From contig CAIMLR010000014.1 of assembly GCA_903842345.1 (NCBI GenBank), positions 1 through 64,000 on the forward strand: 64,000 nucleotides of DNA. The letters run 5' to 3'. Positions within the stretch are counted from its first letter, which is position 1, and every line of letters begins with the position of its first letter. The notes below the pieces were generated by a model, which was not told the origin of the DNA, made no database searches, and was given only the letters and a program-made list of their open reading frames with translations. The position numbers and the translations under genes were made by a program. Below are positions 3,060 through 34,428 of this stretch, piece after piece. The stretch is from an uncultured Myxococcales bacterium (GTDB lineage Bacteria; Myxococcota_A; UBA9042).

Positions 3060-3776
3060 ATGAAGAAATTTGGCATGTTTTCCGCGATGAGCGCCACGTT
3101 GGCGCTGTCTGTTGTGGCTGTCGGCTGCAAGCGTGAAGAGACGACCGCCCCGGTAGCGGTTCCGACCGTCGCTGCTGAGCCTGCCGCTCCTGCCGCCAAC
3201 GAGCTGCCTCCGGGCCATCCGCCGATGCCGGGCGCCGCTACGGAAGCCACGGCGCAGCCCGCCATGCCGGCTGGTCACCCGTCGATCAACGGTGCCGCGC
3301 CGGCTGCGATTCCGGGCGCTGCCGCCGATGGCCTGGCGTTTGAGGCGCCGGCCGAATGGCAGGCCAAGCCCGCCCGCGCGATGCTCTGGAAAGTCATGAG
3401 CGCGCCCAAGGTCGAAGGCGACACGGACGACGCGGAAGTGACCATTTCCTCGCTCGCCGCCAACATTCCGCTCAATGCCAACGTCGAGCGCTGGTGCGGC
3501 CAGTTTGACCTGGAAGGCGGCAAGCCTTGCAGCGAAGCGGCGAAGATTCGCGACCTGACCGGCACGGCGTTCCCGTCCAAGGTCGTTGAAATCGCGGGCG
3601 CGCTGAAGTCCGCCAGCATGAACGGCCCGGCGGGCGCGGCGAAGGCCGGCTGGCGCATGGTCGTCGTGGAAGTGACGATGCCCGGCAAAGCGTGGTACCT
3701 GAAAATGACCGGCCCGGCGAAGACCGTCGCCAAGTGGCAGGACGCGTACCTGAAGGCCGCGAGCGCCATCAAGTAG
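3060..3776 (+). CDS. Predicted lipoprotein with GHPP-type linker
   Basis: A 238-residue lipoprotein. The signal ends in VVAVGC, with the lipid-bearing Cys at residue 23. An Ala/Pro-rich linker follows, containing two GHP-containing copies (PPGHPPMPG and MPAGHPSI) that may span the periplasm or cell wall. The C-terminal domain, from about residue 90, starts FEAPAEWQ and contains NVERWCGQF. This recalls a small conserved domain seen in secreted planctomycete and deltaproteobacterial proteins, usually of unknown role; that resemblance is from memory. A GGAGAG site precedes the ATG. It sits just ahead of an orphan response regulator gene. Confidence 0.75.
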   Translation: MKKFGMFSAMSATLALSVVAVGCKREETTAPVAVPTVAAEPAAPAANELPPGHPPMPGAATEATAQPAMPAGHPSINGAAPAAIPGAAADGLAFEAPAEWQAKPARAMLWKVMSAPKVEGDTDDAEVTISSLAANIPLNANVERWCGQFDLEGGKPCSEAAKIRDLTGTAFPSKVVEIAGALKSASMNGPAGAAKAGWRMVVVEVTMPGKAWYLKMTGPAKTVAKWQDAYLKAASAIK

Positions 3777-3824
3777 TTTGCCAGTCGCCCTTTACACCTC
3801 GCTGATCGTTGGACGGAAGACCGC

Positions 3825-4511
3825 ATGCGTCTGCTGCTAGTTGAAGACAATCCGCTCGTCGGCACGATGTTGCGCGTCAATCTCGGTCAGGAGGGCTTTG
3901 AAGTCCACTGGCATACGACGGGCGAATCCGCGCTGATCGCGCTGGAGACCGAGCGGTTCGATCTGGCGCTGCTGGACATCGGCCTTTCGGGCATCAGCGG
4001 CATCGAGGTCGCGGGGCGCATTCGCAAGCTCGGGCTCGAGACGCCGATCATCATGCTGACAGCCAACGATGACCTGGATACCCGCGTGCATGCGCTGGAT
4101 CGCGGCGCGGATGACTATCTGGCCAAGCCGTTTGACATGGACGAGCTAATCGCCCGCGTGCGCGCGCACTTGCGGCGGGCGTCGGGCACGCTGGAGCACT
4201 TGCCGGAGACGGAAGTGCACATCGGCGACGCGGTGCTGACGTTGGAGCGGAAGCTGCTGCGCGGTCCTGACGGGCAGTCGCACGCGCTGACGGACCATGA
4301 AGTGGCGCTCGTGCAGTTTCTGGTGCGCAATCCGGCGCGGGTGCTGACGCGCGCCAACATTCTGGAAGAGGTCTGGGGCGCGGAAGACGCGCTGACATTG
4401 GCGGAGCTGGACGACCTGATCGCCCGCCTGCGCGGTTGCGTGGAGAACGAGCCGTCGCATCCGCGCTACATCGTGACCGCGCGCGGCGTTGGGTACCGGT
4501 TCGAGCCTTAG
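3825..4511 (+). CDS. OmpR/PhoB-family response regulator, orphan
   Basis: A 228-residue two-domain regulator. The receiver domain has the acidic pair E7-D8, phospho-acceptor D51, T79 and K101 in LAKPF. The C-terminal winged-helix DNA-binding domain ends in the family signature RGVGYRFEP. It is expected to bind DNA as a phosphorylation-controlled dimer. No kinase gene is adjacent: it follows a lipoprotein gene and converges with the nrfD-type gene, with an intergenic repeat between. Its partner kinase and targets cannot be inferred from position alone. Confidence 0.93.
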   Translation: MRLLLVEDNPLVGTMLRVNLGQEGFEVHWHTTGESALIALETERFDLALLDIGLSGISGIEVAGRIRKLGLETPIIMLTANDDLDTRVHALDRGADDYLAKPFDMDELIARVRAHLRRASGTLEHLPETEVHIGDAVLTLERKLLRGPDGQSHALTDHEVALVQFLVRNPARVLTRANILEEVWGAEDALTLAELDDLIARLRGCVENEPSHPRYIVTARGVGYRFEP

Positions 4512-4802: not shown

Positions 4803-5966
4803 CTAGTGGTCGTGCGCGTCGATCTTCCACACCGGCAGAATCTGCGTCACCGCAATCAGCAGGATAAACGGCAGCGTAAAGACGCCCATCGCCACCAGGA
4901 TGCCTTCACGGCCGTACCACTCCGGCACGTACTGCACAAAGCCGCGGAAGCTCTTGGACAGCATCTGGCCGCCAATGACGACGTTGAACCGCATCGCCAG
5001 CACTTGCACAAGCACCAGCAGGCCCGAGATCGTGCCGAGCGTGATGCGGGTGCGCGGGCTCGTCTTCTTCATCCAGCCGATGAGCAGCAGCACGAACGGA
5101 ATCGCTGAGCCGATGATCAACTGCACGTAGAGGAACGTGAAGCGCAGTTTCTCGGTCACGAGGCGCGACAGAATGTGCCACTCTTCGCCGGCTTCATACG
5201 CCATGTTCAGCAGTTCCAGCGACTCGAGCGTCACCGCCAGGATCAGGAACAGCCACAGCGTCTTCATCATCGACCGCAGGCACTCGTCGTCCACTTTCAC
5301 GCCGCGCACCTTGGAGTACACAACGTAGAGGACAATCAGCATCGCGATGCCGGACACAATCGCCGACGCCAGGAAGATGACCGGCATCAGCGCCGTCGAC
5401 CACCACGGGTTCGCCTTGATGCCGCCGAAGATGAAGCCGACGTAGCCGTGGAGCACGCACGCCGCCGGAATACCGATGACGGAGAGCGCGTGGATCCACT
5501 TGGCGTCAATCTGCTTGGACTTGGCGGTCTCGCGCAGCACGCCGAGCGACAACACTTTGTACAGCAGGCTCTTGATGCCCGTTCCCGCCGCCATGGCGAC
5601 GATGTCGCTCCGGAACACCAGCAGGATCTCTACCGCGAGAAGCGTCAGATAGAAGCTGTAGATGAACCCGAAACCAGCCATGGCCGACGTAAAGTTGGGC
5701 ATGAACATGATGAAGAACGCGCGTTGCGGCTGATGCAAGTGCAGCAGCAGCGGCAGCGTGGCGAACGCGCAGAAGGAGAAAGACGCCGCCAAAGCGAAGC
5801 GCGCAACCGGTGCGAGCTCCTTCCGGCCAAACACGTGGTAGAGCGCCGCGACGACAAACGCGCCGGCGACGAGGCCTGTGATGTAGGGGTAAAGGACAAT
5901 CATGACGGTCCAGGCTACGCCTGACATATCATTGGGAAAAATGAACTCTGCAGCTTGGTGAGTCAT
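4803..5966 (-). CDS. NrfD/PsrC-family quinol-interacting membrane subunit
   Basis: A 387-residue polytopic membrane protein with roughly eight to ten hydrophobic helices. The pattern is typical of NrfD/PsrC membrane subunits that exchange electrons between the quinone pool and a periplasmic Fe-S subunit. It is the last gene of a leftward operon after a tetraheme cytochrome and a four-cluster Fe-S protein, the same subunit make-up as the Geobacter Cbc4-type complex. The ATG at 5966 overlaps the preceding TGA (TGATG), implying translational coupling; an in-frame GTG three bases upstream is the alternative. The quinol-oxidase or quinone-reductase direction is not shown by sequence, but the linked outer-membrane cytochromes favour quinol oxidation. 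Confidence 0.9.
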   Translation of the reverse strand: MTHQAAEFIFPNDMSGVAWTVMIVLYPYITGLVAGAFVVAALYHVFGRKELAPVARFALAASFSFCAFATLPLLLHLHQPQRAFFIMFMPNFTSAMAGFGFIYSFYLTLLAVEILLVFRSDIVAMAAGTGIKSLLYKVLSLGVLRETAKSKQIDAKWIHALSVIGIPAACVLHGYVGFIFGGIKANPWWSTALMPVIFLASAIVSGIAMLIVLYVVYSKVRGVKVDDECLRSMMKTLWLFLILAVTLESLELLNMAYEAGEEWHILSRLVTEKLRFTFLYVQLIIGSAIPFVLLLIGWMKKTSPRTRITLGTISGLLVLVQVLAMRFNVVIGGQMLSKSFRGFVQYVPEWYGREGILVAMGVFTLPFILLIAVTQILPVWKIDAHDH

Positions 5967-6820
5967 CACACCACCTCCGCGGTCAGGCCGATATAGCGGG
6001 TCTTGGGACGCGTGCCGAGGTAGGACTTCAGCACGTCAATACGGTTCGCCGCCAACGTCTTGGAGATCTCACTCTCCGGGTCGTTGATGTCGCCAAAGGT
6101 GCGCGTGCCCGTGGGGCAGACGTCCACGCAAGCCGGTTTCTCGCCGTGCTGGATGCGGTGGTAGCACCACGTGCACTTGTCGGCGGTGTTGGTCTTGGTG
6201 TTGATGAAGCGCGTGCCGAACGGGCAAGCCTGCACGCAGTACGCGCAGCCGATGCACTGTTCGTAGTCGACGAGCACCACGCCTTCCTTGGTCTTGTACG
6301 AGGCGCCGACCGGGCAGACCTGGATGCAGGGCGTGTCCAGGCAGTGGTTGCAGAGCTTGGGCACGAAGAAGGCCTTGTCGACCTCCTTCGGGTCAATCGG
6401 CGGCAGCTCGGTGAACGCGAACGTGCCCTTCGTGTTGGCGTCCACCCGCACCGAGCCGTCCTTGTAGTAGACGTAGCGCTCGACCCAAGTGCGAAACTCG
6501 CCGTCCGGGACGTCGTTTTCCTTCTTGCACGCCAACATGCAGCCGCCGCAGCCGATGCATTTCGTCGTGTCGACGAGGTAGCCAAAGAGCACCGTGTGGC
6601 CCTTCACTTCCTTGCCGTCGCTGTTGGTGTGCACCTCTTCAGCGTCCGCCTTCTCCACGAAGATCGGAATCGCCGTCAGCGTCAGCGCGCCGAACGTGAA
6701 GTTCTTGACCGCGTCCCAGATGAACTCACGGCGCGACTCATTCGCGTCCAGGAGCCCCACGGGCGCTTCCTTCGTCTCACAGCAGGTGTCCTTGCCACCC
6801 TTGTTGTCACAGCAGCTCAT
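5966..6820 (-). CDS. Tat-type ferredoxin-like subunit with four 4Fe-4S motifs
   Basis: A 284-residue electron-transfer subunit of the NrfC/DsrO/HybA type. A twin-arginine motif SRREFI (residues 29-34) precedes a hydrophobic segment and a plausible cleavage after ADA (residue 60), so it should act on the periplasmic face. Four cluster motifs follow: CxxCxxCxxxC, CxxCxxxxCxxxCP, CxxCxxCxxxCP and CxxC-x11-CxxxCP, sixteen Cys in all. Unusually, the part before the Tat motif has two Cys pairs (MSCC and DTCC). The start overlaps the cytochrome gene's stop (ATGA). It should pass electrons between the NrfD-type subunit and the tetraheme cytochrome. Confidence 0.93.
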   Translation of the reverse strand: MSCCDNKGGKDTCCETKEAPVGLLDANESRREFIWDAVKNFTFGALTLTAIPIFVEKADAEEVHTNSDGKEVKGHTVLFGYLVDTTKCIGCGGCMLACKKENDVPDGEFRTWVERYVYYKDGSVRVDANTKGTFAFTELPPIDPKEVDKAFFVPKLCNHCLDTPCIQVCPVGASYKTKEGVVLVDYEQCIGCAYCVQACPFGTRFINTKTNTADKCTWCYHRIQHGEKPACVDVCPTGTRTFGDINDPESEISKTLAANRIDVLKSYLGTRPKTRYIGLTAEVV

Positions 6821-7437
6821 TCTGCACCTCCAGCAGCGGGCGTCGCGGCAGCGGGAGCAGCGGTCGGGGTCGCTGCTTCAGCCGGCTTGGCCTCGTCGTC
6901 TTTGTCATCACTCGGCTCTTCCGACGGGTCGTGCGGCACGTGGCACTGCATGCAGACCATCGGGCTCTTGGGATCCTTCGGATCGTTGTCTTTCATGTGT
7001 TCGGGAAAGTTGATCTGCGGGTGCTTGGTCGCGCGGCCAACCATCTGCTGATGGCAGTGCAGGCAGATCGACTTGATGTCAGTCGGCATCAGGTTGGTCT
7101 TGTCGCAGCTCACCTTGTCGCCGGGCTTGGCCGCCGCCTTCGCGGTCTTGCACGCCGTCATGTGGTCCTTGCCCTCACCGTGGCACTCAATGCAGTGCAC
7201 CGCGGCGTGGCTCTTGCCCATCTCATGCTTGAGCGTCTCATGGCACGCGGCGCAATCGCCTCGGGTCGTAAGCTTGCGCTCCTTGTCGGTGGCAGTCTGC
7301 AGGGCAGCGCCGCGGTAATGGCCAAACTGGCCGAATGAAGGCGGGATGGTAAGGCCGCGTACGGTAAAGAAACCGACGCCAACCAGTGCCAACGCGCCCG
7401 CCAAAATCCAGAGGTGAAGGGTGTCGCGTGAAAACAT
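6817..7437 (-). CDS. Membrane-anchored tetraheme cytochrome c (CbcS-like)
   Basis: A 206-residue protein with one N-terminal transmembrane helix (about residues 9-27) and four CxxCH haem motifs (CAACH, CIECH, CLHCH, CMQCH). Two further Cys lie between the second and third motifs. An acidic Ala/Pro-rich tail follows. An in-frame start exists at 7482, but ATG 7437 is preferred because AGGAG lies at the right distance and the membrane anchor then begins at the N-terminus. It is the first gene of the leftward operon, about 45 bases from a sigma-54 promoter. By position and composition it is the cytochrome subunit of the quinol module. Confidence 0.92.
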   Translation of the reverse strand: MFSRDTLHLWILAGALALVGVGFFTVRGLTIPPSFGQFGHYRGAALQTATDKERKLTTRGDCAACHETLKHEMGKSHAAVHCIECHGEGKDHMTACKTAKAAAKPGDKVSCDKTNLMPTDIKSICLHCHQQMVGRATKHPQINFPEHMKDNDPKDPKSPMVCMQCHVPHDPSEEPSDDKDDEAKPAEAATPTAAPAAATPAAGGAE

Positions 7438-7491
7438 CGTAGAGCTCCTCTCTCTTGCAGGCCGCAACTGAGCGACCTGCACAGGGAGCTT

Positions 7492-7507
7492 TGCAAGAAG
7501 CTTGCCA
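7492..7507 (-). promoter_or_regulatory. Sigma-54 promoter of the quinol-module operon
   Basis: On the minus strand the sequence is TGGCAAGCTTCTTGCA. Compared with the TGGCACG-N4-TTGCA consensus it has one mismatch, and the GG and GC doublets are exactly ten bases apart. Transcription would start near 7480, leaving a leader of about 43 bases to the tetraheme cytochrome ATG. Confidence 0.8.
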
Positions 7508-7560
7508 TCTACGACAATTCCAGTTGCCGATCACGTTTAGCAAGGATGCAATCAGAGCCC

Positions 7561-7578
7561 ACTTGATCCAGATCAAGT
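7561..7578. promoter_or_regulatory. FNR-type binding site
   Basis: ACTTGATCCAGATCAAGT is an 18-base perfect dyad containing an exact match to the FNR consensus TTGAT-N4-ATCAA (7563-7576). It lies in the divergent control region, about 90 bases upstream of the inferred leftward start site and about 370 upstream of the rightward one. It suggests oxygen- or redox-responsive control by a CRP/FNR-family protein. No FNR gene is in the window. Confidence 0.8.
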
Positions 7579-7683
7579 GCCGGGAGCGAAAGCCAGAATC
7601 CCAGCCGGTGGCGCGCCGAAACTTCGGCATCGCATCTATCCATCTGTTATTACATGCGAATAGGGCGAGACGCCGAACGAGAA

Positions 7684-7697
7684 CGAACGATCGTTCG
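7684..7697. promoter_or_regulatory. Perfect 14-bp palindrome, possible operator
   Basis: CGAACGATCGTTCG is fully self-complementary and lies between the FNR-type box and the paired TGCCGA palindromes. No regulator family can be assigned. It may be an additional operator or chance. Confidence 0.35.
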
Positions 7698-7750
7698 CGT
7701 CGGTTTGCCACCACAGACCACAACACATTGAAATTACACAAAAGCGCGGC

Positions 7751-7787
7751 TGCCGAAAATTCGGCAGCGCATGCCGAGTTCTCGGCA
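7751..7787. promoter_or_regulatory. Paired upstream activator sites (TGCCGA-N4-TCGGCA x2)
   Basis: There are two perfect palindromes, TGCCGA-AAAT-TCGGCA (7751-7766) and TGCCGA-GTTC-TCGGCA (7772-7787). Their starts are 21 bases apart, two helical turns, as expected for cooperative binding by an NtrC-type activator. They lie about 145 bases upstream of the rightward -24 element and about 260 bases from the leftward one, within looping range of both sigma-54 promoters. The same motif recurs at 17349-17364 and 17449-17464 upstream of the kinase gene. Assignment to the neighbouring sigma-54 activator is inference. Confidence 0.7.
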
Positions 7788-7913
7788 GTCACAGAAGCCG
7801 GCATGGAACCCGGCAAGATCGGGCGAATTCCGTCCGGCAAGAAATGGCTTCACGGACAGGCACTTCCCTATCGGGCGCAGGTGTGGCAAATAGGCGCGAC
7901 AAGTCGGCCCGAA

Positions 7914-7929
7914 TGGCACGCTCCTTGCA
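7914..7929 (+). promoter_or_regulatory. Sigma-54 promoter of the porin-cytochrome operon
   Basis: TGGCACGCTCCTTGCA is a perfect match to the -24/-12 consensus TGGCACG-N4-TTGCA. Transcription would start near 7940, giving a leader of about 50 bases to the ATG at 7992. Confidence 0.9.
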
Positions 7930-7991
7930 ATGGATGCGTGTGGTTGCGTGGAGTCCGACGGCGGCTCATGCTGCGCCAGGAGACGAGAGAC

Positions 7992-10900
7992 ATGGACATG
8001 CGAATGACAAACGGCGAGCTGGCAGTGCGCGACAAGCGCTTCAGTTCGGGGCAACTTCTGGCAACGGCGTACTGCTTCCTGATGGTGGCGATGGCGGGTT
8101 GTGACAACGCCCGGGGCCCGCTCGTCGCGGAGACAGACGCCTTCTCCGGCGACGCGGCCGACGGAAGCGCTGACGTGACGCCGACCTTCGCACCAGAGTG
8201 CGGGGCGTGCCACGGCAGCTTGGCGAATCCGGCGCCGCCCAACGCGATTGGCGGCAAGACGGACACGACCTGGCGCGGCGTCGGCGCTCACCAGACGCAC
8301 GTGCGCGGCACCGAGACCAACCACGCGGTCGCCTGCAGCTCCTGCCACAAGGTCCCCACGGGCATTTGGGACGCCGACCACATGGACTCGCCGCAATTCC
8401 GCGCGACCGTGACCTTTGGCGGCGTGGCCCTGTCCGGCGGCGCGACGCCCGTCTACGACCCGGAAACGTTTACGTGCAGCAATACCTACTGCCACGGCGG
8501 CAAGGTGAAGGCACCGGGCAAGAACAGCAAGCCGCTTTGGACGCTTGTCGACAACAGCCAGCGCTCGTGCGACTCCTGCCATGGCGCGCCCCCTGCCGCG
8601 CCGCACCCGCAGACGGGCGACTGCATCGATTGCCACGCTGGCACCGCGGGTCCGAACAAGACCATCGCCAACAAAGCCAACCACATCAACGGCAAGGTTG
8701 ACCTGGTCCTCGGCGTCAACACGAAGTGCGACGCGTGCCACGGCTATCCGCCGGTCAGCGACAAGCACCCAAAGACGACCGAAAAGTGCGCGGGCTGCCA
8801 CGAGACGACTGTCGACGCCGATTCGCTCATCGTCGCCGGCGGCACGCACATGAATGGCAAAGTCGACGTGGCGCTGTCAGCCAGCGCGCCCTGCTCTGGC
8901 TGCCACGGCGCGCCGCCGATCAGCGACAAGCACCCCAAGACGCTCGGCAAATGCGAAGGCTGCCACACGACAACGGTCGACGGCGCTGGCAAAATCGTCC
9001 CGGGCGGCACGCACAACAACGGCAAGGTGGACGTGGCGCTCGGCGCGGACGTCGACTGCAAAGGCTGCCACGCGTTCCCGCCGGTCAGCGACAAACACCC
9101 GAAGACACTGGCGACCTGCGAAGGCTGCCACACCACGACGGTCGATGTGGACAACCACATCGTCAGCAACGGCACGCACAACAACGGCAAGGTCGACGTC
9201 GCGCTTTCCAACAACGCCAACTGCGTGGACTGCCACGTTGTGCTGCCCAACCCGCCGGGCACAGCCAAGCACCCTGCGACCAACGGCGCGACCAACTGCG
9301 AGGGCTGCCACGCGACGACGGTGGACGTGAACAAGCACATCATCCCCGGCGGCGCGCACATGAACACCAAGGAAGACGTGGTCCTCGGTGCTGACGTCGA
9401 CTGCGCGGGCTGCCACGGCTCGCCGCCCGTCAGCGCCAAGCATCCCTTGACCGGCGCGAAGTGCGAAGGCTGCCACACGACGACCGTCGACGCGGATCAG
9501 CACATCGTGGTCGGGGGCACCCACCGCAATGACAAGGTCGACGTGGCGCTCTCCAACAACGCCAACTGCACGGACTGCCACAAGATGTTGCCAAACCCGC
9601 CGGGCAGCGCCAAGCACCCGGTCACGGACGCCAACACCAACTGCGAGGGCTGCCACACGACCACGGTCGACGCGAGCAAGCACATCGTCGCGGGCGGCAC
9701 GCACATGGACGGCAAGAGCGAGGTCGCGCTCGGCAAAGACGCCAACTGCGCAGGCTGCCACGCCGCGCCGCCCAACAACGGCAAGCACCCGATCACGACC
9801 GCGAATTGCGAAGGCTGCCACACGTCGACGGTCGATGTGAACAAGCAGATCGTCGTCGGCGGCACGCACATGAACGACAAGGTCGACGTGGCGCTCTCTG
9901 CCAACGCCGATTGCACCGGCTGCCACGGCGCCCCGCCGGTCAGCGCGAAACACCCGGTGACGAGTGCGGACTGCGCGGGCTGCCACAGCTCGACGGCCTC
10001 CGCGGGCAAGCAGATTGTTCCGGGCGGCACGCACATGGACGGCAAGATCGACGTCGTGCTTTCGACCACCGCGGACTGCTCGGGCTGCCACGGCGCACCG
10101 CCGAACAACGGCAAGCACCCGATGACGCTGGAGAACTGCGAGGGCTGCCACGCGACGACGGTCGACGCCAACAAGCAGATCCTCGCCGGCGGCACGCACC
10201 AGAACGGCAAGATCGACGTGGTCCTCGCGAGTGACGCGGTCTGCAACGCGTGTCACGGCGCGCCGCCGACGACGCCGAATCACCCGGTGACCACGGCGAA
10301 TTGCGAGGGCTGCCACACGACAACGGTCGATGTGAACAAGCAGATCGTCCCGGGTGGAACGCACATGGACGGTACGGTGGAAGTCGCGCTCTCGGCCAAC
10401 GCCGATTGCAGCGGTTGCCACGGCGCCCCGCCGACGGTGAACAACCATCCGCAGTCGACAGCGTGCGAAACGTGCCACGCGCTCACGGCTGGGCCGAACA
10501 AGACGATCGCCAACCCGGCCAATCACCGCAACGGCAAAGTGGACATCAAGGTCACTGCCGCGGCGGATTGCACGGCGTGCCACGGCGCGCCGCCGCAAAA
10601 TGGCAAGCACCCGCAGTTGCAGCCGATCGTCGAGTCCTGCCACCTGTGCCACGGCACGACGGTGGGCGCCGACGACAAGGTGTTGGACGTCGGGACGCAC
10701 GCGAACGGCACGATTGACTTCGCGCTTGTGCCGACGACCTGCGATGCCTGCCACGGGGCGCCGCCGGTCAAACCCGAGCATCCGAAGATGAACAACTGCA
10801 ACAAGTGCCACTCGACGACCGTGGACGCGACGAACACCGGGATTGTGGCGAACGGCACGCACGTGAACGGCACCATCGACATCGTGCTCCCCACGGCGTG

Positions 10901-11423
10901 CGACAGCTGCCATGGCGGCAATGGTTCCGCCGCTCCGCCGCCGGACGTCAACGGCAACACCGACCCGACGCTGCCGACGGTCGGCGCGCACGCGGCGCAC
11001 CTGAAGGGCAACTTGTATTCGGGCGGCGGCATCACCTGCGACACGTGCCACGAACTGCCGACGACGGTGGCCCAAACCGGCCACCTGACGGGCACGCTCG
11101 ACTCGATCAAGTTCCCGAACGGCAAGGCAGTGGCGCCCGGATTGGTGCCGAACTACAACCCGGCGACGTTGACTTGCTCCAACGTCTACTGCCACGGCGC
11201 AACGCTTCCCGACGGCGTGAACACCTCCCCGGTTTGGAACAAGCCCGGCCTCGCTTGCAACAGCTGCCACGGCGTCGCGCCTTCAGTCCTGTCCGGCCAC
11301 CCGTACGTTGACCCCACGTTTGGCACGGTCGCCTGCGCGCTCTGCCATTCCAAGACCGTCAACGCCGATGGCACCTTGAACCTGAAAGACGGCTGGCACG
11401 TCAACGGATTGGTGAACCCATGA
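7992..11423 (+). CDS. Giant 36-haem c-type cytochrome lipoprotein
   Basis: An 1143-residue lipoprotein (lipobox VAMAGC, Cys37) with 36 haem attachment motifs by my count: 34 CxxCH and two CxxxxCH. The latter (CSNTYCH and CSNVYCH) are each followed by a CxxCH, the arrangement known as the CxxxxCH/CxxCH domain of Geobacter cytochromes. Between them lie about 14 tandem diheme units of some 52-60 residues with the pattern CxGCHGAPP...KHP...CEGCHTTTVD...GGTHMNGKVDVAL. The frame stays open from 7455, but ATG 7992 is chosen: it gives a clean lipoprotein signal, has AGGAG upstream and lies downstream of the sigma-54 promoter. Its stop overlaps the beta-barrel gene's ATG. It is probably the outer-surface or extracellular electron carrier of the cluster; filament formation is possible but unshown. 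Confidence 0.95.
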   Translation: MDMRMTNGELAVRDKRFSSGQLLATAYCFLMVAMAGCDNARGPLVAETDAFSGDAADGSADVTPTFAPECGACHGSLANPAPPNAIGGKTDTTWRGVGAHQTHVRGTETNHAVACSSCHKVPTGIWDADHMDSPQFRATVTFGGVALSGGATPVYDPETFTCSNTYCHGGKVKAPGKNSKPLWTLVDNSQRSCDSCHGAPPAAPHPQTGDCIDCHAGTAGPNKTIANKANHINGKVDLVLGVNTKCDACHGYPPVSDKHPKTTEKCAGCHETTVDADSLIVAGGTHMNGKVDVALSASAPCSGCHGAPPISDKHPKTLGKCEGCHTTTVDGAGKIVPGGTHNNGKVDVALGADVDCKGCHAFPPVSDKHPKTLATCEGCHTTTVDVDNHIVSNGTHNNGKVDVALSNNANCVDCHVVLPNPPGTAKHPATNGATNCEGCHATTVDVNKHIIPGGAHMNTKEDVVLGADVDCAGCHGSPPVSAKHPLTGAKCEGCHTTTVDADQHIVVGGTHRNDKVDVALSNNANCTDCHKMLPNPPGSAKHPVTDANTNCEGCHTTTVDASKHIVAGGTHMDGKSEVALGKDANCAGCHAAPPNNGKHPITTANCEGCHTSTVDVNKQIVVGGTHMNDKVDVALSANADCTGCHGAPPVSAKHPVTSADCAGCHSSTASAGKQIVPGGTHMDGKIDVVLSTTADCSGCHGAPPNNGKHPMTLENCEGCHATTVDANKQILAGGTHQNGKIDVVLASDAVCNACHGAPPTTPNHPVTTANCEGCHTTTVDVNKQIVPGGTHMDGTVEVALSANADCSGCHGAPPTVNNHPQSTACETCHALTAGPNKTIANPANHRNGKVDIKVTAAADCTACHGAPPQNGKHPQLQPIVESCHLCHGTTVGADDKVLDVGTHANGTIDFALVPTTCDACHGAPPVKPEHPKMNNCNKCHSTTVDATNTGIVANGTHVNGTIDIVLPTACDSCHGGNGSAAPPPDVNGNTDPTLPTVGAHAAHLKGNLYSGGGITCDTCHELPTTVAQTGHLTGTLDSIKFPNGKAVAPGLVPNYNPATLTCSNVYCHGATLPDGVNTSPVWNKPGLACNSCHGVAPSVLSGHPYVDPTFGTVACALCHSKTVNADGTLNLKDGWHVNGLVNP

Positions 11424-12826
11424 ATGCCCAACACCCAACGAAGCTGCGACAGATTCTGCTGGCCCTGGGACTCGCTGCGGGACTTGCGAGCCACACGGCG
11501 TGGGCCGAGGAGGGCGAGGCGGAAGGCACGCTTCACCTCACCGCCAAGAGCGTGACGACGATCACGCGCGACGTGGTCCCCGGCGCGTTTGACACGACTG
11601 AGCGGCAGATCCCGACGATGCAGATTCTCAATCTGCGCGGCGAGAACATCGCCGGAACCGGCATGTTCGCATACGGCTCAGGCTTCGCGGCGCAGCAAAT
11701 CGCCTCGGGCTCGCTCCCGCCCGCGCGTGCGGCCGATTTGGCGTACGGCTACGTCGGCTGGGACGGCATCGACCACAAGGTGCGCATTCAGGTCGGCCGC
11801 CAGTTTGTCTTCAGCGGCGCGCCGCGCTACGTCTTCATGGACGGCGCCTCAGCCATCGTCCGCCTGCCTGCGAACTTCCGGTTGGACGTCTACGGCGGCA
11901 CCGCGGCATTCAGCGGCTTCCAGCACGAGTTTGACGCGCCAGTCATCGGCACGCGCCTCGCGTGGATGCCGTGGACGGTCGGCCACATCGCAGCGGCGTT
12001 CCAGGACGTCTCGGGCAGCACGGAAGCGACGCGCCGCACGGTCGGCACGGACGCTTCGCTGCGCATCAAATCCGTCACGTTCACCGGCCTGTACGCGTTC
12101 GACCTGCTCGGCCGCGGCATGCAGGAAGCGCGCATCGACGGCACCTGGCGCCCGGTTCCCTGGCTCGGCATCTTCGCCCGCGGCGAAGCGCGCGATCCGC
12201 TGGCCTATTTGCCCCGCAACTCCATTTTCACCGCGTTCGTCCAGCGCACGGACGGCCTGGCGGGCTTGGGCTTTGACATCAAGACGCCCGGTGCGCTCTA
12301 CGGCAACGGCTCGTACGACCGGTACATCATCGGCGACGGCCACTTGGACGGCTACCGCGCGCAGCTCAACGTCGGCCTCAAGCTCGACGACAAGGGCGCG
12401 TACCGCACCGGCGTCACCTACACGCGGATGTACAACGGCGACAACGGCTACGATCAGGCGCGCATCTGGTGCCGCGGCGAACTGCCTTCGCACCTGACCG
12501 CCGCGCTCGATCTGGACAGCTACTATTTCTTCGCGCCGATCCGCGGCGTTTCGCAATCGCTGATGGCGACCGCGGCCGTGCGCTACCAGCCCACGCGTGG
12601 CCTGACGGCGGGCGTGGATGGCCAGGTTTGGACGAATCCCTACTTCACGTCGCAGGCAATGGCGCTGATTTCGGTGACAATCACCGACGCGCTGTTCCGC
12701 CCTGCCCCGGTCGCCGTGGCGCCGCCGCCCAAGAAGGCCGACGACGACGAAGGCCGCGCCGCATTCCCGGCGTCGCCCGGTTTGGCCGTCAATGACCGTC
12801 CGCTCGTCATGCGAGGTGCCCTGTGA
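11420..12826 (+). CDS. Predicted outer-membrane beta-barrel (porin of the cytochrome conduit)
   Basis: A 468-residue protein with a signal peptide likely cleaved after HTAWA. Alternating hydrophobic/polar strands with aromatic girdle residues follow throughout, the pattern of a transmembrane beta-barrel. A Pro/Lys/Asp-rich tail follows, so the last strand may end near residue 430. It overlaps both neighbours (ATGA with the 36-haem gene, GTGA with the 13-haem gene), so the three are translationally coupled. By context it is the barrel that sheathes a cytochrome across the outer membrane, as MtrB or OmbB do. It is shorter than MtrB and I see no clear MtrB motif, so family membership is inferred from context. 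Confidence 0.8.
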   Translation: MNAQHPTKLRQILLALGLAAGLASHTAWAEEGEAEGTLHLTAKSVTTITRDVVPGAFDTTERQIPTMQILNLRGENIAGTGMFAYGSGFAAQQIASGSLPPARAADLAYGYVGWDGIDHKVRIQVGRQFVFSGAPRYVFMDGASAIVRLPANFRLDVYGGTAAFSGFQHEFDAPVIGTRLAWMPWTVGHIAAAFQDVSGSTEATRRTVGTDASLRIKSVTFTGLYAFDLLGRGMQEARIDGTWRPVPWLGIFARGEARDPLAYLPRNSIFTAFVQRTDGLAGLGFDIKTPGALYGNGSYDRYIIGDGHLDGYRAQLNVGLKLDDKGAYRTGVTYTRMYNGDNGYDQARIWCRGELPSHLTAALDLDSYYFFAPIRGVSQSLMATAAVRYQPTRGLTAGVDGQVWTNPYFTSQAMALISVTITDALFRPAPVAVAPPPKKADDDEGRAAFPASPGLAVNDRPLVMRGAL

Positions 12827-13941
12827 TTGGCAAACGATTTTCCTCCCGCGCGCTCCGCGCCATCGTCCTGGGCGTCCTGCTCGTCAGCGCGTCCGCGTGC
12901 GCCTACCTCGTGGGCCCGTGGAGCGGCGTGGCCGGAACGCAAAGCAAGCGCGACGTCATCACGTTCTCGCACAACCGCCACATCGTCAAAGAGACCGTCG
13001 GCTGCGCCGATTGTCACGGCGACATGGCGACCAACGAAAGCCTGGACGCCAAGCGCGCGATTCCGCACGAAAGCCGCTGCATGGACTGCCATGACAAGAA
13101 AGACAACTGCAAGATGTGCCACGCCAATCCGGAACAGCCGGTGACGCTTGTCGACCACCGCATGGAAGGCATGGTCTTCTCGCACAAGAACCATCTGGTT
13201 CGTTCGCTGCCCGGCGACGCCTCGCCCGTGACGTGTGAGACGTGCCATGGCGACATCAAGGATGCGACGCGCGTCTCCGACAACACCCGGCCCGGAATGC
13301 TGGAAGCATGCAGCAAGTGCCACCAGAAGGACTTTGGCCGCGAGAACTGCACGCTGTGCCACAAGCCGGGCAGCTTGGGCGCGCAAACCTCCAACCAGAT
13401 TTGGGACCACGGCGGGGACTGGCTGCGCCGCCACGGCAGCGCCGCCCGTACCAGCGACGCGGTATGCGCGCACTGCCACAAGATTGACACCTGCGCCGAC
13501 TGCCACAGCCGCAGCAACGTCCCGATCCGGCCGTCGCAGTTGAAGCTTGACCGCCCTGACTCGCTCGCGCACCACCGCGGCGATTGGCTGTCACGCCATC
13601 CGATGGAAGCGCGTTTGGACAGCAAGTCGTGCCAGACCTGCCACCAGTTGAGCTCGTGCCAGCAGTGCCACGACCGCATGGGCGTGGGTCAAACCGGCGC
13701 GCTGGGCAGCAAGAACGGCCCGCACCCGGCCGGCTGGCTGCTGCGCGGCAGCGGCGAGAACCACGGCGATGCCGCGCGCCGCGACGCCGTCTCCTGCGCT
13801 GCGTGCCACGACCGCGGCGCCGCGTCCAACTGCGTCACGTGCCATCGCGTCGGCGCACCGGGCGGCAATCCGCACCCGCCGGGCTGGCAGAGCAACCAGG
13901 ACAAGCTGTCTGCGCCTGCTTGCACGCCCTGCCACCAGTAG
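12823..13941 (+). CDS. 13-haem c-type cytochrome
   Basis: A 372-residue protein that appears almost wholly haem-binding: 13 CxxCH motifs spread over about 320 residues with many extra His for bis-His ligation. The N-terminus has a signal sequence ending SASAC, which could be a weak lipobox or a normal cleavage site. The GTG start overlaps the barrel gene's stop. A probable role is the periplasm-facing partner that threads the beta-barrel and feeds the 36-haem protein, as MtrA/OmaB-type cytochromes do. That role is inferred from operon order and haem count, not from a diagnostic motif. Confidence 0.9.
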   Translation: MIGKRFSSRALRAIVLGVLLVSASACAYLVGPWSGVAGTQSKRDVITFSHNRHIVKETVGCADCHGDMATNESLDAKRAIPHESRCMDCHDKKDNCKMCHANPEQPVTLVDHRMEGMVFSHKNHLVRSLPGDASPVTCETCHGDIKDATRVSDNTRPGMLEACSKCHQKDFGRENCTLCHKPGSLGAQTSNQIWDHGGDWLRRHGSAARTSDAVCAHCHKIDTCADCHSRSNVPIRPSQLKLDRPDSLAHHRGDWLSRHPMEARLDSKSCQTCHQLSSCQQCHDRMGVGQTGALGSKNGPHPAGWLLRGSGENHGDAARRDAVSCAACHDRGAASNCVTCHRVGAPGGNPHPPGWQSNQDKLSAPACTPCHQ

Positions 13942-14306: not shown

Positions 14307-15707
14307 CTACGTCCGATTCATCTTGCTCTGGAACGTCGTCCGCGCCAGACCCAGAATCTCGCCCGCTTTGGACTGCTGGCCGCCCGCCCTGCGCATCGCC
14401 CACTGGATGAGCGCGTCTTCGACGCGGTGCACAAGCTCGGTCATGGGGACCGTTTCGCGCCCATCCAAGTGCAGGGTAAAAAGCTCGCCCGACGGCTCCG
14501 CCTGGACGCCGCGCAGAAACGCCGGCAGCTGGTCCGGCCCAATTGCGCCGTCTGCGCAGAGGGTCGCGGCTGACTCCATCGCGTGCCGCAGTTCACGCAC
14601 GTTGCCGGGCCAGCCATAGCGCCGCACCAGGCCCGCCGCCTCGGGGGACAGCGTCGGCTCCGGCTTGTTCGATTCGTGGGCAAAGCGCTGGAGGCAATGC
14701 TGCGCCAGCAGGAGCACATCCTCACCGCGCTCGCGCAACGGCGGGAGGCGAATTTCCAGCGCCCGCAGCCGATAGAACACGTCGTCCCGGAACCGGCCCT
14801 TCGCCACCGCCTCGCCCAGATCGACTTTGGTCGTCGCGATCACCCGCACATCGACCGTCACTTCGCGGTTGCCGCCCACCCGCTGGAACGAACCTTCCTG
14901 CAACGCGCGCAGCAACTTCACCTGCAAATTCAGCGGCAGATCGTCCACATCATCCAGCAGCAACGTCCCCTTGTGCGCGCGCTCAAACGCGCCCTGCCGC
15001 ATCCCCGTCGCGCCCGTGAAGGCGCCCTTCTCGTGGCCGAACAGCTCGCTCTCCGCAAGTTCGGTCGGAATCGCGCCGCAGGGAATCGGCACAAACGGAC
15101 CCATCGCCCGCGGCCCCGCCTCATGCAGCGCCCGCGCGACGACTTCCTTGCCCGTCCCCGTCTCCCCGGTAATCAGCACCGGCACGGCGTGCGCGGCAAA
15201 CGTGTGCACAAGCTTGACGACCTGCAGGATCTGCGGCGACTGCCCCAGGATCCGCCGCGACGCCGCGTCGGTCTCCAGCAGCGTTCGCAGGTTGGAGACC
15301 TGCTTGCGATAGCCGCGCAACTGCGCCAGCGTTCGCAGCCGCAGCTCCAACTCCTGAAAATGAAATGGCTTGGTCAAGTAGTCGGCCGCGCCGTCCTGCA
15401 TCGCCGTGACCGCGGTCTTCACGGTGCCAAACGCGGTCATGACAATGACGTCAACACCTGGATAATCGGCGCGAATCGCCCGCAGCAGCTCCAGGCCGTC
15501 CATGCCGGGCATGCGGAGATCGCACAGCACAACGTCCCATTCGCCCGCCGCGAGCAAATCGAGCGCACGGTAGCCGTTCTCCACCGCATCGGCCGGGAAC
15601 CCCGCGTCGTGCAGTTGCCGCATGGTGGTTTCGCGCACGAGCCGGCCGTCATCGACGACCAGAACGCGCAGTGGTGTTCCCAGATGCCCAGACGCGCCGT
15701 CGGTCAT
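14307..15707 (-). CDS. NtrC-family sigma-54-dependent response regulator
   Basis: A 466-residue enhancer-binding activator. The receiver domain has D19-D20, phospho-acceptor D63, T91 and K113. The AAA+ domain has Walker A GETGTGKE (about 181-188), the sigma-54 contact loop GAFTGA (about 228-233) and Walker B in GTLLLDD. A Fis-type helix-turn-helix ends the protein (GGQQSKAGEILGLARTTFQSK). The ATG overlaps the kinase stop (ATGA), so kinase and regulator form a coupled pair. Sigma-54 promoters occur at both divergent cytochrome operons and at the monohaem cytochrome gene, so these are the likely targets, with TGCCGA-N4-TCGGCA as candidate enhancer site. Confidence 0.96.
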   Translation of the reverse strand: MTDGASGHLGTPLRVLVVDDGRLVRETTMRQLHDAGFPADAVENGYRALDLLAAGEWDVVLCDLRMPGMDGLELLRAIRADYPGVDVIVMTAFGTVKTAVTAMQDGAADYLTKPFHFQELELRLRTLAQLRGYRKQVSNLRTLLETDAASRRILGQSPQILQVVKLVHTFAAHAVPVLITGETGTGKEVVARALHEAGPRAMGPFVPIPCGAIPTELAESELFGHEKGAFTGATGMRQGAFERAHKGTLLLDDVDDLPLNLQVKLLRALQEGSFQRVGGNREVTVDVRVIATTKVDLGEAVAKGRFRDDVFYRLRALEIRLPPLRERGEDVLLLAQHCLQRFAHESNKPEPTLSPEAAGLVRRYGWPGNVRELRHAMESAATLCADGAIGPDQLPAFLRGVQAEPSGELFTLHLDGRETVPMTELVHRVEDALIQWAMRRAGGQQSKAGEILGLARTTFQSKMNRT

Positions 15708-17266
15708 GCAGCCCTCGCCGTCGGTCGCAGCGGCAGGTCGATGCAGATTGTGGTGCCGGTTCCCAATTGGCTGGTGACGCGGATGTCGCCGTCGTGGTCC
15801 TCGACGACTTGCCGCGTGATGGCGAGACCGAGGCCCGTGCCTTCACCGACGGGCTTGGTCGTGAAGAAGGGCTCAAAGATCTTGGCGATCTCGTCCTCCG
15901 CGATCCCCGATCCGGTGTCCGAGACTTCAATCCGCACGCCGTCGCCTGGGGACGGTGTCGGCTGGATGCGCACCGTGACGCTGTCGTTGGTTGCACAAGC
16001 GTCGATGGCGTTGTCGATGACGTTGCTCACCGCATCGGTCAGCCGCTCCGTATCCACAGGCAACGTCGGCACTTCCTGGATTTCCAGGCGCACGAGCACG
16101 CCTCGCGCGCGCGCCCGCACTTCCGCGAACTGCATCGCATCCTGGACAAGCAGCGCAATATCCACCTGCGCCGACGGCGGCGGCGTCTCCCGCGCGAGCA
16201 CCAGCAGGCGGCTCGTGACGTTCTCAATGCGGTTCACGCCTTCGGTCATCAGATCGAGAATCTCGCCCGCGCTGCTGTCCTGCCTGTCGATCCGCTGCTG
16301 CAGCATGTCGATGCAGCTCAGCACGCCATGGAGCGGATTGCGAATGGTGTGCGCGACACCCGCGACGAGACTGCCGATCCGCGCCAGTCGTTCCCGCGCT
16401 TGCGCCACCTGCGCATGCTGCCGACGCAGGGCTTCAGCCTCGCGAATGCGGTGCACCAGATCGTGGACAAAGATGATGACGCCCAAGCCCGTCAGCCCGT
16501 ACGCCGCGATGTAACCCAGCATGTACAGAGGCGAAGTCCAGAGACTCGTCGGCGCCACCGCGTGCGCTGCCGTGCCGATCAGCAGCGGGTAGTGCGCCAG
16601 GATGCCCGACGACTCCGCCAGCACCATCGTCGCGTAGAGCAAGCCGGTGAACACGCCGATCGCCAACGCCTTGCGCAGTGGCAGCAGCATCCCGGCAAAG
16701 GCCATGTGGAAGACCGACAGCATCATGAACGGATTGTCAGCGCCGCCCGCGAAATGCAGCAGGTACATCAGCATTGCCAAATCAAAGACGATTTGCAGCG
16801 TCAGCAGGTTTTGCAGCACTTGCCGCGAAGTCGCCGCCGAAACGCGCTGTGCGATGATGTTGAAGACGACGTTGCCAGTCAGGTGCGCGAGGCCAAGCGC
16901 AAACAGCGTGGTCTTGGCGGTGACGATGTCCAAGGCGCTCGCGATCAGCACGACCCCGAGGATCGCCGCCGAAGCGCGCCAACGCAGACGCACGAACCAA
17001 TTGAGGCGCTCCACAAGCTCCGCGGGCTCCGGCAACTGCCCCGCGCCTTCAGCGGCGGGTCTCGGGCTTTCGATGCGCAGAACGGGCACTGGCAGGTCCT
17101 CCATGCGGGGACAATCTGCACAATGTGGACCAATCTCGCAGGCGTCTTGCGTATTCGATAGAGGCGAGTCACTTTCCGCGTGCCGACCCGCGCAATCCGG
17201 CAACCGCGCCGCGCGCATGGCGTCGTGCTTTTGCAGGGAAGTCAGGGTTGCGGGCAGTTGCGTCAT
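15704..17266 (-). CDS. RegB/PrrB-like redox-sensing histidine kinase
   Basis: A 520-residue kinase with six predicted transmembrane helices (about 98-268), an H-box AHTIRNPL (His306) and a C-terminal ATPase domain (DNAIDA, DTGSGIAEDE, GTGLGLAI). The loop after the third helix contains GGADNPF (174-180), the GGxxNPF quinone-binding signature of RegB/PrrB/ActS, so it probably reads the quinone redox state. C318 follows the H-box. The cytoplasmic N-terminus carries a CX5CX2C motif (C43, C49, C52). The start is uncertain: no strong ribosome site precedes ATG 17266. It is coupled to the sigma-54 regulator rather than to a RegA-type partner. Confidence 0.9.
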   Translation of the reverse strand: MTQLPATLTSLQKHDAMRAARLPDCAGRHAESDSPLSNTQDACEIGPHCADCPRMEDLPVPVLRIESPRPAAEGAGQLPEPAELVERLNWFVRLRWRASAAILGVVLIASALDIVTAKTTLFALGLAHLTGNVVFNIIAQRVSAATSRQVLQNLLTLQIVFDLAMLMYLLHFAGGADNPFMMLSVFHMAFAGMLLPLRKALAIGVFTGLLYATMVLAESSGILAHYPLLIGTAAHAVAPTSLWTSPLYMLGYIAAYGLTGLGVIIFVHDLVHRIREAEALRRQHAQVAQARERLARIGSLVAGVAHTIRNPLHGVLSCIDMLQQRIDRQDSSAGEILDLMTEGVNRIENVTSRLLVLARETPPPSAQVDIALLVQDAMQFAEVRARARGVLVRLEIQEVPTLPVDTERLTDAVSNVIDNAIDACATNDSVTVRIQPTPSPGDGVRIEVSDTGSGIAEDEIAKIFEPFFTTKPVGEGTGLGLAITRQVVEDHDGDIRVTSQLGTGTTICIDLPLRPTARAA

Positions 17267-17348: not shown

Positions 17349-17364
17349 TGCCGACTTTTCGGCG
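17349..17364. promoter_or_regulatory. TGCCGA-N4-TCGGCA-type site upstream of the kinase gene
   Basis: TGCCGA-CTTT-TCGGCG differs by one base from the paired sites at 7751-7787. It lies about 85 bases upstream of the kinase start and suggests autoregulation. Confidence 0.5.
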
Positions 17365-17428: not shown

Positions 17429-17464
17429 AGCCGGAATTTCGGCGCCATTGCCGATTTTTCGGCA
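17429..17464. promoter_or_regulatory. Paired TGCCGA-type sites upstream of the kinase gene
   Basis: The site at 17449-17464 (TGCCGA-TTTT-TCGGCA) is a perfect copy of the palindrome found between the divergent cytochrome operons. Twenty bases to its left, 17429-17444 (AGCCGG-AATT-TCGGCG) is a degenerate partner. The spacing resembles the 21-base pair spacing at 7751-7787. Confidence 0.55.
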
Positions 17465-17577: not shown

Positions 17578-17925
17578 CTACTTCTTGGTCAGGGTCTTCA
17601 GGAACGCGGCGACCGTGTCGAGTTCAGCCGGCGTGCCCTTGAAGGCGATCTTGTGCTTGGCCTTCTCGCCCTTCTTCACGATCGAGTCGCGCTCGATTTC
17701 CTTGTTCAGCCAGCCCTTGAACCAGGCCACGTCGTGTTCCTTGCCCACCCCGGAGAGGTCGATGATCGTCGGCTTGTCTTCCAGAGCCGCGACGCCTTCG
17801 CTGGTGATCTTGTGGCACTTGTTGCACTTCTGCTCGAGGAACGTTTCCTTGCCACCGGCAGCCTGGGCAGCGAACGGGGCAGCGGTCAAGGCGGTCACGG
17901 CAAACGCGAGAATGTAACGACGCAT
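17578..17925 (-). CDS. Small monohaem cytochrome c lacking methionine in the mature part
   Basis: A 115-residue periplasmic cytochrome: signal peptide cleaved after AAQA, one haem motif CNKCH, and the C-terminal helix GTPAELDTVAAFL typical of class I cytochromes. The mature sequence contains no Met, so the usual sixth ligand is absent. A His in AKHKIAF, where Met normally lies, is the likely substitute, which would lower the potential. In-frame sequence continues upstream to 18162, but ATG 17925 has AGGAG before it and a clean signal peptide. It has its own sigma-54 promoter and terminator. It may shuttle electrons between the quinol module and the 13-haem cytochrome. Confidence 0.9.
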   Translation of the reverse strand: MRRYILAFAVTALTAAPFAAQAAGGKETFLEQKCNKCHKITSEGVAALEDKPTIIDLSGVGKEHDVAWFKGWLNKEIERDSIVKKGEKAKHKIAFKGTPAELDTVAAFLKTLTKK

Positions 17926-18048: not shown

Positions 18049-18064
18049 TGCAAGCATCGCGCCA
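18049..18064 (-). promoter_or_regulatory. Sigma-54 promoter of the monohaem cytochrome gene
   Basis: On the minus strand TGGCGCGATGCTTGCA has one mismatch to TGGCACG-N4-TTGCA, with correct GG-N10-GC spacing. The inferred start near 18037 leaves a leader of about 110 bases. No obvious TGCCGA-type enhancer pair was seen upstream. Confidence 0.75.
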
Positions 18065-18284: not shown

Positions 18285-18298
18285 TTGATCTGCGTCAA
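18285..18298. promoter_or_regulatory. FNR/DNR-type site
   Basis: TTGATCTGCGTCAA matches TTGAT-N4-GTCAA, the form used by DNR/NnrR-type CRP/FNR regulators, and is one base off the FNR consensus. It lies about 100 bases before the hydratase-family gene and about 250 bases upstream of the inferred leftward cytochrome start. Confidence 0.5.
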
Positions 18299-32289: not shown

Positions 32290-34428
32290 ATGAAACGCGT
32301 CTTGCTCCTCGCCGTATGCGCCTGCGCCTGCAGCAACACCGCCACCCCTGCCGGCACCGGTTTGCCTGACACCGTAGGCGGCAAAGGCGACGGCGTCGTC
32401 GCCCTGCCCGACGCCAGCACCAACGACGCGGTCGACTTTGACTCGCCGTTCAGCTGCAAGGACGGGGAAGTCGCGTGCTTCAACGAGACAACCAGCAAGA
32501 TCTGCGTGAACAGCGGCTGGAAACTCAAGGACACCTGCGCGGGCGGCGACGTGTGCAAGGACGGCGCTTGCCTGACGCCGACGACCTGCACCGCGGGCGC
32601 GAGCCTGGGCTGCGACGGCTTTTCCGCGGAGATCCACTGCAGCGCGGACGGCGCGTCGACGTTCAAGACCGCATGCACCGGCCAACAGCTCTGCGTCGAC
32701 GGCAAGTGCCAGACCACCGCGTGTACGCCGTACATCCCGGAATGCACGCCCGGGTCCAAGACAAGCTTCCACACGTGCCTGCCCGACGGCAGCGCGTACG
32801 GCGACGCGACGGACTGCAAGACCGGCTCCTACTGCTTTGGCGGCAAGTGCGTCAGCCTGTGCGAGCAAGGCGTGAAGTTCGGCGGCAACGTCGGCTGCGA
32901 ATACTGGAGCGTGGATTTGGACAACGATCCCGGCGCCGTGCCGCTCTCCACCGTCGTGCCGGAAATGGTGCCGCACAGCGTGGTCATCTCCAATCCGGGG
33001 CAATTTGACGCGACGATGACGTTCACCATCCAGGCGACCTGCGCGGACGGCTCCGTGTGCGCGCCGAGCGCGACGACCTGCAACAGCAAAGCCAAGACGG
33101 TGTGCGATACGCCCGGGCCGAGCATCGACCTCGTGATGAAGGACAGCGTCGTCCCCGCGGGCCAGACCCGGGAATTCAAGATGCCGGTCATGAACGCGTC
33201 CGGATCGGGCGTGATGCGCAAGGCCGTGCACGTCAAATCGACGCAGCCGGTCGTTGCCTACCAGTTCAATCCGTACAACGCGGAGAATGCCGCGTCCAAT
33301 GATGGCTCGCTCCTGCTGCCGCAGAACGCCTTGGGCAAGACGTACTACGCGGTGGTGCCGGCGCAGTCGCGCGGCGCGATGATGGGTTTTGCCGCCAACA
33401 GCGCGTTCCTGAGCGTGGTTGCGACGATGCCGGGCGCGACGACGGTGAACGTCACGCCGACCCGCGATTGCCAGGTGAACTACAAGCTGGGCGTGCCGGG
33501 CGATGGCACAAAGCCGGCGGTGCTGGCCAAAGGCAAGACGTACACGTTCCAGATCCTGCAGTTTGACGTGCTGAACATCGAGGAAGCGGCCAAGACGGAG
33601 CAGGTGCCGCCCAATTCCGGACCGCAGGCGCTGCCGAACATGACGGGTTCCAAGGTCGAGGCGGACAAGCCTGTGGCGGTATTCAGCGGCCATCAGGTGG
33701 CGGGCGTTCAGGACGATTGGCGCTTTGGCCAGAGCCAGGGCAGCGACCCGACGTGGGACACCTGCTGCACGGAGCACATGGAAGAGCAGCTGATGCCAGT
33801 GGAATTCTGGGGAACGGAGGCGTTCTGCGTCAAGACGAAGCCGCGCGGGGACGAGGTGGACGAGTTTGTCGTCGTCGCGGGCGAAAATGGCGTGCAACTG
33901 ACGACCGATCCGCCGTCCGTGGCCAAGTATCCAAATGGCAAAGAGCTGAACGGCGTGACGCTGAACGCGGGCGAACGCGCGCGCGTGCAGACGGACCAGA
34001 GCTTCATGCTCAAGGCGACCGGCAAGATCCAGGTGGCGCAGCTGCTGGTGAGCGCCGGACAGGCGTCGCAGACCAACAACGGCGTGGCGGCCACCTTGGG
34101 CGACGCGAGCATGGCGCTGATCCCGGCCAAGTCGCAGTACCGCCCGGACTACACGATCCAAACGGCGGCAGGCTTCATTGGCAACTACGTCAGCATCGTG
34201 CGCCCCGTGGGCGTTGCCATCGCGATGGACGGCGTGCCGCTCAAGGTCGGCTTCCAGAGCTTTGGCGACGGAACGTGGGAATTCGCCTACGTGAAATTCG
34301 ATCCCGGCACGCACACCCTGGAGAGCGTCGCGCCCACCGGCGGCACTGGCACGCCGTTTGGCCTGATGGTCTATGGGTACGGCGGCGTCACCGCGTACAG
34401 CTATCCGGGCGGCATGATCCTGAAGTAA
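32290..34428 (+). CDS. Secreted Cys-rich protein with IgGFc-binding-type domain
   Basis: A 712-residue exported protein. The N-terminus is hydrophobic and Cys-rich (LLLAVCACACS), perhaps a lipoprotein signal. A linker follows, then an approximately 150-residue Cys-rich region of short CxxG(A/K)C-type repeats. From about residue 200 there is a long beta-rich domain with IgGFc-binding-family features (SVDLDNDP, YYAVVPAQSRG, PVAVFSGHQ, CCTEHMEEQLMP, YGYGGVTAYSYPGG). In bacteria this domain marks surface proteins of Myxococcota and relatives. The name comes from animal homologues and does not imply IgG binding here. Its Cys-rich region resembles other secreted proteins in the window. Confidence 0.85.
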   Translation: MKRVLLLAVCACACSNTATPAGTGLPDTVGGKGDGVVALPDASTNDAVDFDSPFSCKDGEVACFNETTSKICVNSGWKLKDTCAGGDVCKDGACLTPTTCTAGASLGCDGFSAEIHCSADGASTFKTACTGQQLCVDGKCQTTACTPYIPECTPGSKTSFHTCLPDGSAYGDATDCKTGSYCFGGKCVSLCEQGVKFGGNVGCEYWSVDLDNDPGAVPLSTVVPEMVPHSVVISNPGQFDATMTFTIQATCADGSVCAPSATTCNSKAKTVCDTPGPSIDLVMKDSVVPAGQTREFKMPVMNASGSGVMRKAVHVKSTQPVVAYQFNPYNAENAASNDGSLLLPQNALGKTYYAVVPAQSRGAMMGFAANSAFLSVVATMPGATTVNVTPTRDCQVNYKLGVPGDGTKPAVLAKGKTYTFQILQFDVLNIEEAAKTEQVPPNSGPQALPNMTGSKVEADKPVAVFSGHQVAGVQDDWRFGQSQGSDPTWDTCCTEHMEEQLMPVEFWGTEAFCVKTKPRGDEVDEFVVVAGENGVQLTTDPPSVAKYPNGKELNGVTLNAGERARVQTDQSFMLKATGKIQVAQLLVSAGQASQTNNGVAATLGDASMALIPAKSQYRPDYTIQTAAGFIGNYVSIVRPVGVAIAMDGVPLKVGFQSFGDGTWEFAYVKFDPGTHTLESVAPTGGTGTPFGLMVYGYGGVTAYSYPGGMILK

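Follow-up and report, generated by a model that had tools for sequence, protein, structure and literature searches.

The divergent gene set at positions 4,803 to 13,941 of the window (the whole 64,000-bp stretch analysed, G000:C14:1-64000, from a 5.85-Mb, 96%-complete genome) probably encodes an outward trans-envelope electron conduit that belongs to a Myxococcota-wide porin-cytochrome family and is controlled by a sigma-54 regulon. This genome and all others behind the results are draft assemblies; the bacterium may come from a lake, judging from the name of a related uncultured Myxococcales MAG, AlinenLipids_bin-2060. The earlier note had described six genes in two divergent operons, with 53 haem motifs and overlapping start and stop codons, and these points were borne out: the open reading frames lie where they had been placed, the motifs recount as 4 + 36 + 13 = 53, and the overlaps are of 4 bp each (5966-5969, 6817-6820, 11420-11423 and 12823-12826). 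The genes and sites of the locus are:

4803..5969, minus strand: NrfD-type membrane subunit, presumed quinol-oxidising (PF03916, E 4e-38)
5966..6820, minus strand: periplasmic Fe-S subunit with four 4Fe-4S motifs and a twin-arginine signal (SRREF motif)
6817..7437, minus strand: membrane-anchored tetrahaem cytochrome c (4 CXXCH)
7492..7507, minus strand: sigma-54-type -24/-12 site facing the quinol operon, TGGCAAGCTTCTTGCA (11/12; kept in congeners)
7563..7576, no strand: FNR-like box, TTGATCCAGATCAA (the only one in the window, 0.02 expected)
7614..7629, no strand: enhancer-like palindrome with one mismatch
7751..7766, no strand: enhancer-like palindrome, TGCCGAAAATTCGGCA (perfect site)
7772..7787, no strand: enhancer-like palindrome, TGCCGAGTTCTCGGCA (perfect site)
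7914..7929, plus strand: sigma-54-type -24/-12 site facing the conduit operon, TGGCACGCTCCTTGCA (12/12; kept in congeners)
7992..11423, plus strand: 36-haem lipoprotein (13 dihaem units of 55 aa between two 5-haem caps)
11420..12826, plus strand: predicted 22-strand outer-membrane barrel, 468 aa (AlphaFold2 pLDDT 75.9, fold matches)
12823..13941, plus strand: 13-haem lipid-anchored cytochrome, presumed occupant of the barrel
14307..15707, minus strand: NtrC-type sigma-54 activator, a response regulator (PF00158, PF00072, PF02954)
15704..17266, minus strand: membrane histidine kinase with a PilS-like transmembrane region
17349..17364, no strand: enhancer-like palindrome with one mismatch, upstream of the kinase gene
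17449..17464, no strand: enhancer-like palindrome, TGCCGATTTTTCGGCA (perfect site)
17578..17925, minus strand: monohaem cytochrome c, probably of the same regulon (PF00034)
18049..18064, minus strand: sigma-54-type site facing the monohaem gene, TGGCGCGATGCTTGCA (11/12)

The large open reading frame opens nominally at 7455, but its start is corrected to ~7992 on account of a Shine-Dalgarno sequence (AGGAGA), an ATG and a lipobox (VAMAGC) that are conserved in congeners; with the start of the tetrahaem gene corrected to 7437, ~550 bp of true intergenic DNA lie between the operons and hold the control sites. The quinol operon is flanked (window positions 3060-4511) by genes for a 238-aa lipoprotein-like protein without a Pfam match and an OmpR-type response regulator, both found in congeners. 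Farther along the window (32290-34428), a gene whose 712-aa product matches the IgGFc_binding family (PF17517) adjoins an S-adenosylhomocysteine hydrolase gene. Viral or plasmid carriage was considered; such relatives were searched for and none was found.

The 468-residue protein, which the earlier note took for a beta-barrel and on which it staked the conduit model, is indeed predicted to be one: AlphaFold2 with 24 homologues gave 22 long strands at a mean pLDDT of 75.9. The structural neighbours of the model are generic outer-membrane barrels (OprD-like channels, ushers and TonB-dependent receptors; Z 16-19), and MtrB is absent among the fold matches listed, an absence that proves nothing by itself. 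By sequence the window protein has no match in Pfam, NCBIfam or the PDB, and no Pfam barrel model is common to the 24 homologues, whose weak Pfam matches are scattered and do not extend to the family as a whole. The 468 residues include no plug domain, and the barrel lumen may therefore have space for a partner.

The presumed partner, the 13-haem cytochrome, has a signal sequence and a lipobox-type cysteine, which at least 90% of 42 homologues share; over the same 42 the haem motifs are near-invariant. The PDB entry best matched by a profile of 24 homologues is 3ov0 (Cytochrome c family protein), which we take to be GSU1996, followed by ACIII c-subunits; the profile thus picks out c7-type cytochromes, and MtrA is not among the PDB matches listed. 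The structure model (mean pLDDT 68) is reliable over roughly residues 40-180 alone, a stretch similar to ACIII c-subunits (Z 6-7), and becomes poor past residue 180.

Matches to the barrel query were found in 25 of 71 genomes, including all five of the genus. In all 24 genomes of the class with a convincing barrel match, the barrel gene adjoins a 13-haem gene (12 motifs in one genome) and, wherever the contig allows, has a large cytochrome gene on its other side; the barrel gene is split over contigs in two of the 24. Across the phylum, 79 of 379 genomes matched (E up to 1e-3), and the matches inspected were mostly those stronger than ~E 1e-20: a 12-14-haem cytochrome, sometimes with one CX3-4CH motif, stands beside the barrel in all 20 loci opened, and a relative of the large cytochrome is present in 17. 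The rightward trio is thus kept together in class and phylum, the second point on which the conduit model had been staked, whereas the linkage of the quinol module to it, part of the same proposed gene set, extends only to the genus (contig reach permitting) and two further genomes (G016 and G021), the module being unlinked in most relatives.

The generic fold matches of the barrel would suit an ordinary channel, with no trans-membrane conduit and with cytochromes that serve a periplasmic reductase or electron storage. Such an arrangement is very improbable, since a 12-14-haem cytochrome accompanies the barrel at every locus examined and Pfam and NCBIfam searches found no catalytic reductase subunit in the two operons. 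The barrel and cytochrome constitute a Myxococcota porin-cytochrome family that Pfam and NCBIfam barrel models do not recognise, and the two-gene clusters described from Anaeromyxobacter probably belong to it; because neither database names the barrel, surveys with MtrB-type models would miss the family. Many distant loci (L095, L097, L106, L108 and others) encode an extra 22-34-haem cytochrome and 8-10-haem proteins beside the barrel pair, so that cluster content differs greatly between families. Long open frames in L014, L024 and L030 had hinted at a natural barrel-cytochrome fusion, but the frames differ and there is none.

The 36 haem motifs of the large lipoprotein comprise 34 CXXCH and two CX4CH, the latter being the third haem in either cap. 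Its 13 dihaem units of 55 residues each have a 20/35 motif spacing and share this spacing and their sequence character with cap haems 4-5, from which they may have arisen by amplification. Complete members of this large-cytochrome family have 16, 26, 28 or 36 haems with caps alike; proteins that are encoded in the equivalent gene slot but do not belong to the family consist of tandem pentahaem modules (spacing ~45/46/30/18/33, roughly 18-36 haems in total). Elsewhere in the genome, contig C39 has a 2952-codon open frame with 72 haem motifs (L121:6557-15412, minus strand; 44 CXXCH and 28 CX3-4CH), mostly pentahaem-module repeats as in the 36-haem caps and with a lipobox-like start, and pentahaem-module cytochromes of 22 and 21 motifs are encoded at L120:6821-9733 and L124:7865-10348 (both minus strand; contig C30).

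In essentially all members of the family, Asp directly follows the lipid-anchored Cys of the large cytochrome, and Asp at this +2 position is the inner-membrane retention signal for lipoproteins in E. coli. The 36-haem protein might therefore be held at the inner membrane as a covalent wire that spans the periplasm and joins the quinol complex to the 13-haem/barrel pore, with no surface cytochrome; 36 haems could plausibly cross the periplasm, and two-gene clusters elsewhere have no surface cytochrome (PMC4245776). Electrons would then follow one hard-wired chain without diffusing carriers, its length set by the copy number of the dihaem unit. We consider this placement unlikely, because the inner-membrane lipoprotein signal observed in M. 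xanthus is Lys+2, not Asp+2 (PMC3222651), Asp+2 is not kept outside the family, the haems vary from 16 to 36 within it, yet the gap to be spanned should not vary, and an extracellular position is predicted for the large repeat-built cytochromes of PCC3 clusters (PMC5566968). With so wide a variation in haem number and with the PCC3 precedents, surface display of the 36-haem protein is the better bet, with the cell exterior as its putative, most likely location.

The leftward operon apparently encodes a quinol module. The NrfD-type subunit and the four-cluster Fe-S protein, both named in the first reading of the sequence, are upheld by the PF03916 match and the four 4Fe-4S motifs, respectively. 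NCBIfam matches of the module are generic (TtrB, DsrO, NrfC and NrfD), all under cut-off, and the tetrahaem protein is present in 10 of 22 genomes of the family.

Both operons and the monohaem cytochrome gene face sigma-54-type sites. Three sites of at least 11/12 were found in the window versus 0.93 expected, which is weak on number alone, so that their weight derives from position, orientation and conservation: the sites of the conduit, quinol and monohaem genes recur in congeners where covered and before equivalent genes in G016, G021, G007 and G010, and the monohaem site occupies the same place in congeners and G016. The enhancer-like palindrome, TGCCGA-N4-TCGGCA, occurs at five sites in the window with at most one mismatch (0.46 expected). 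Genome-wide, the perfect form occurs three times in 5.85 Mb, always at the conduit locus, and never in a reversed control; with one mismatch there are 38 sites versus 27 in the control, so only the perfect sites are informative. The palindrome is found at the loci of genomes with a close ortholog of the NtrC-type regulator; it does not occur at the loci of more distant relatives. The conduit and the regulator gene of G001 are on different contigs, and both have palindromes: two upstream of the regulator gene, and the conduit's own. The tetrahaem gene of G006 is also preceded by a palindrome, although a barrel was not found in that genome. RpoN is encoded in the genome. With its -24/-12 promoters, enhancer palindromes and activator, together with RpoN, the locus has the sequence features of a sigma-54/NtrC regulon, and the regulator is predicted to bind there. 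The FNR-like box of the shared intergenic region recurs in congeners as TTGAY-N4-RTCAA, and its conservation suggests anaerobic control. A second FNR/CRP-like box (TTGATCTGCGTCAA, window positions 18285-18298) lies upstream of a fumarylacetoacetate-hydrolase-like gene.

In the proposed mechanism, the NrfD/Fe-S/tetrahaem complex at the inner membrane would draw electrons from the quinol pool, cytochromes would ferry them across the periplasm, the lipid-anchored 13-haem cytochrome inside the 22-strand barrel would carry them through the outer membrane, and the 36-haem lipoprotein, most likely situated outside and acting as a haem wire whose length can evolve, would pass them to acceptors, for example humics or Fe(III). 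The histidine kinase and NtrC-type regulator would activate both operons and the monohaem cytochrome gene via the sigma-54 promoters, and an FNR-like input may add anaerobic control to this regulon. We infer complex formation, electron direction and acceptor; outward respiration, as the most economical reading, is the likeliest function. Electrons could instead flow inward to the quinone pool, given up by Fe(II) or some other donor outside the cell: complexes of the NrfD type can work in both directions, and the monohaem cytochrome of the regulon recalls MtoD. Related architectures are also present in iron oxidisers (PioAB, MtoAB and PCC3; PMC5566968). Inward flow is nevertheless quite improbable, given the FNR-like anaerobic box and the result that RuBisCO, the carbon-fixation route searched, has no match in the genome. 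The latter result and the two haem-copper oxidases encoded in the genome fit a facultative heterotroph. Earlier reports from humic-rich lakes describe porin-cytochrome genes, among them one that has a 51-haem partner (PMC6344600, PMC5615132).

Barrel-cytochrome conduits and giant repeat cytochromes are already known kinds. New with respect to the open-licence PMC literature (earlier reports may exist) are the outline of a phylum-wide family, the cap-and-dihaem-array design with its series of haem numbers, and the locus-specific sigma-54 regulon joining conduit, quinol module and monohaem cytochrome. Differing haem numbers in one gene slot offer a natural series for asking what fixes the length of a haem wire, and the DNA signature of sigma-54 promoters with a nearly unique palindrome can be used to predict which genes of uncultured lake bacteria work together with the conduit.

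Among known systems, the locus has the features of porin-cytochrome (Pcc) systems in the broad sense, namely a predicted outer-membrane barrel and an adjacent exported multihaem cytochrome that are kept in relatives. Membership of the MtrAB/PioAB/MtoAB group was rejected, as there is no MtrB/PioB-type barrel profile match and the partner has 13 motifs and is not an MtrA-like decahaem protein. The combination of a barrel, a multihaem cytochrome and a lipoprotein multihaem cytochrome resembles MtrAB(C) of Shewanella, but 22 strands are predicted here versus 26. The three-gene porin/cytochrome/cytochrome logic is that of OmbB-OmaB-OmcB and ExtABCD of Geobacter, a likeness of layout; OmaB and OmcB have 8 and 12 haems, compared with 13 and 36 here. 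The quinol module, with its tetrahaem cytochrome, four-cluster Fe-S protein and NrfD in one operon, is like Cbc4 (CbcSTU) of Geobacter in composition (a c-type cytochrome, an Fe-S protein and a membrane quinol subunit; PMC11434368), but unlike Cbc4 it is apparently under common control with a barrel operon.

A giant repeat-built cytochrome, a porin and another multihaem cytochrome are likewise encoded together in PCC3 clusters (He et al. 2017, PMC5566968). Up to 42 strands are predicted for PCC3 porins, however, and the inner-membrane protein is a different one, in contrast to the 22 strands and NrfD/Fe-S/tetrahaem module found here. The remark in the earlier note that such conduits are little described in the lineage describes a field that is less bare than it implied, since two-gene clusters of Anaeromyxobacter were published in 2014 by Shi et al. 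as group IV (the Anaeromyxobacter and Kuenenia clusters described there have cytochromes of 338-344 aa with 12-14 haems; PMC4245776). Anaeromyxobacter belongs to the same phylum, and in its clusters, as here, a barrel adjoins a cytochrome of similar size (343-372 aa and 12-14 haems among the present homologues). Compared by description, size and haem number, the locus differs from those two-gene clusters in having a quinol module, a regulon of its own and, as third gene beside the pair, one for a 36-haem protein.
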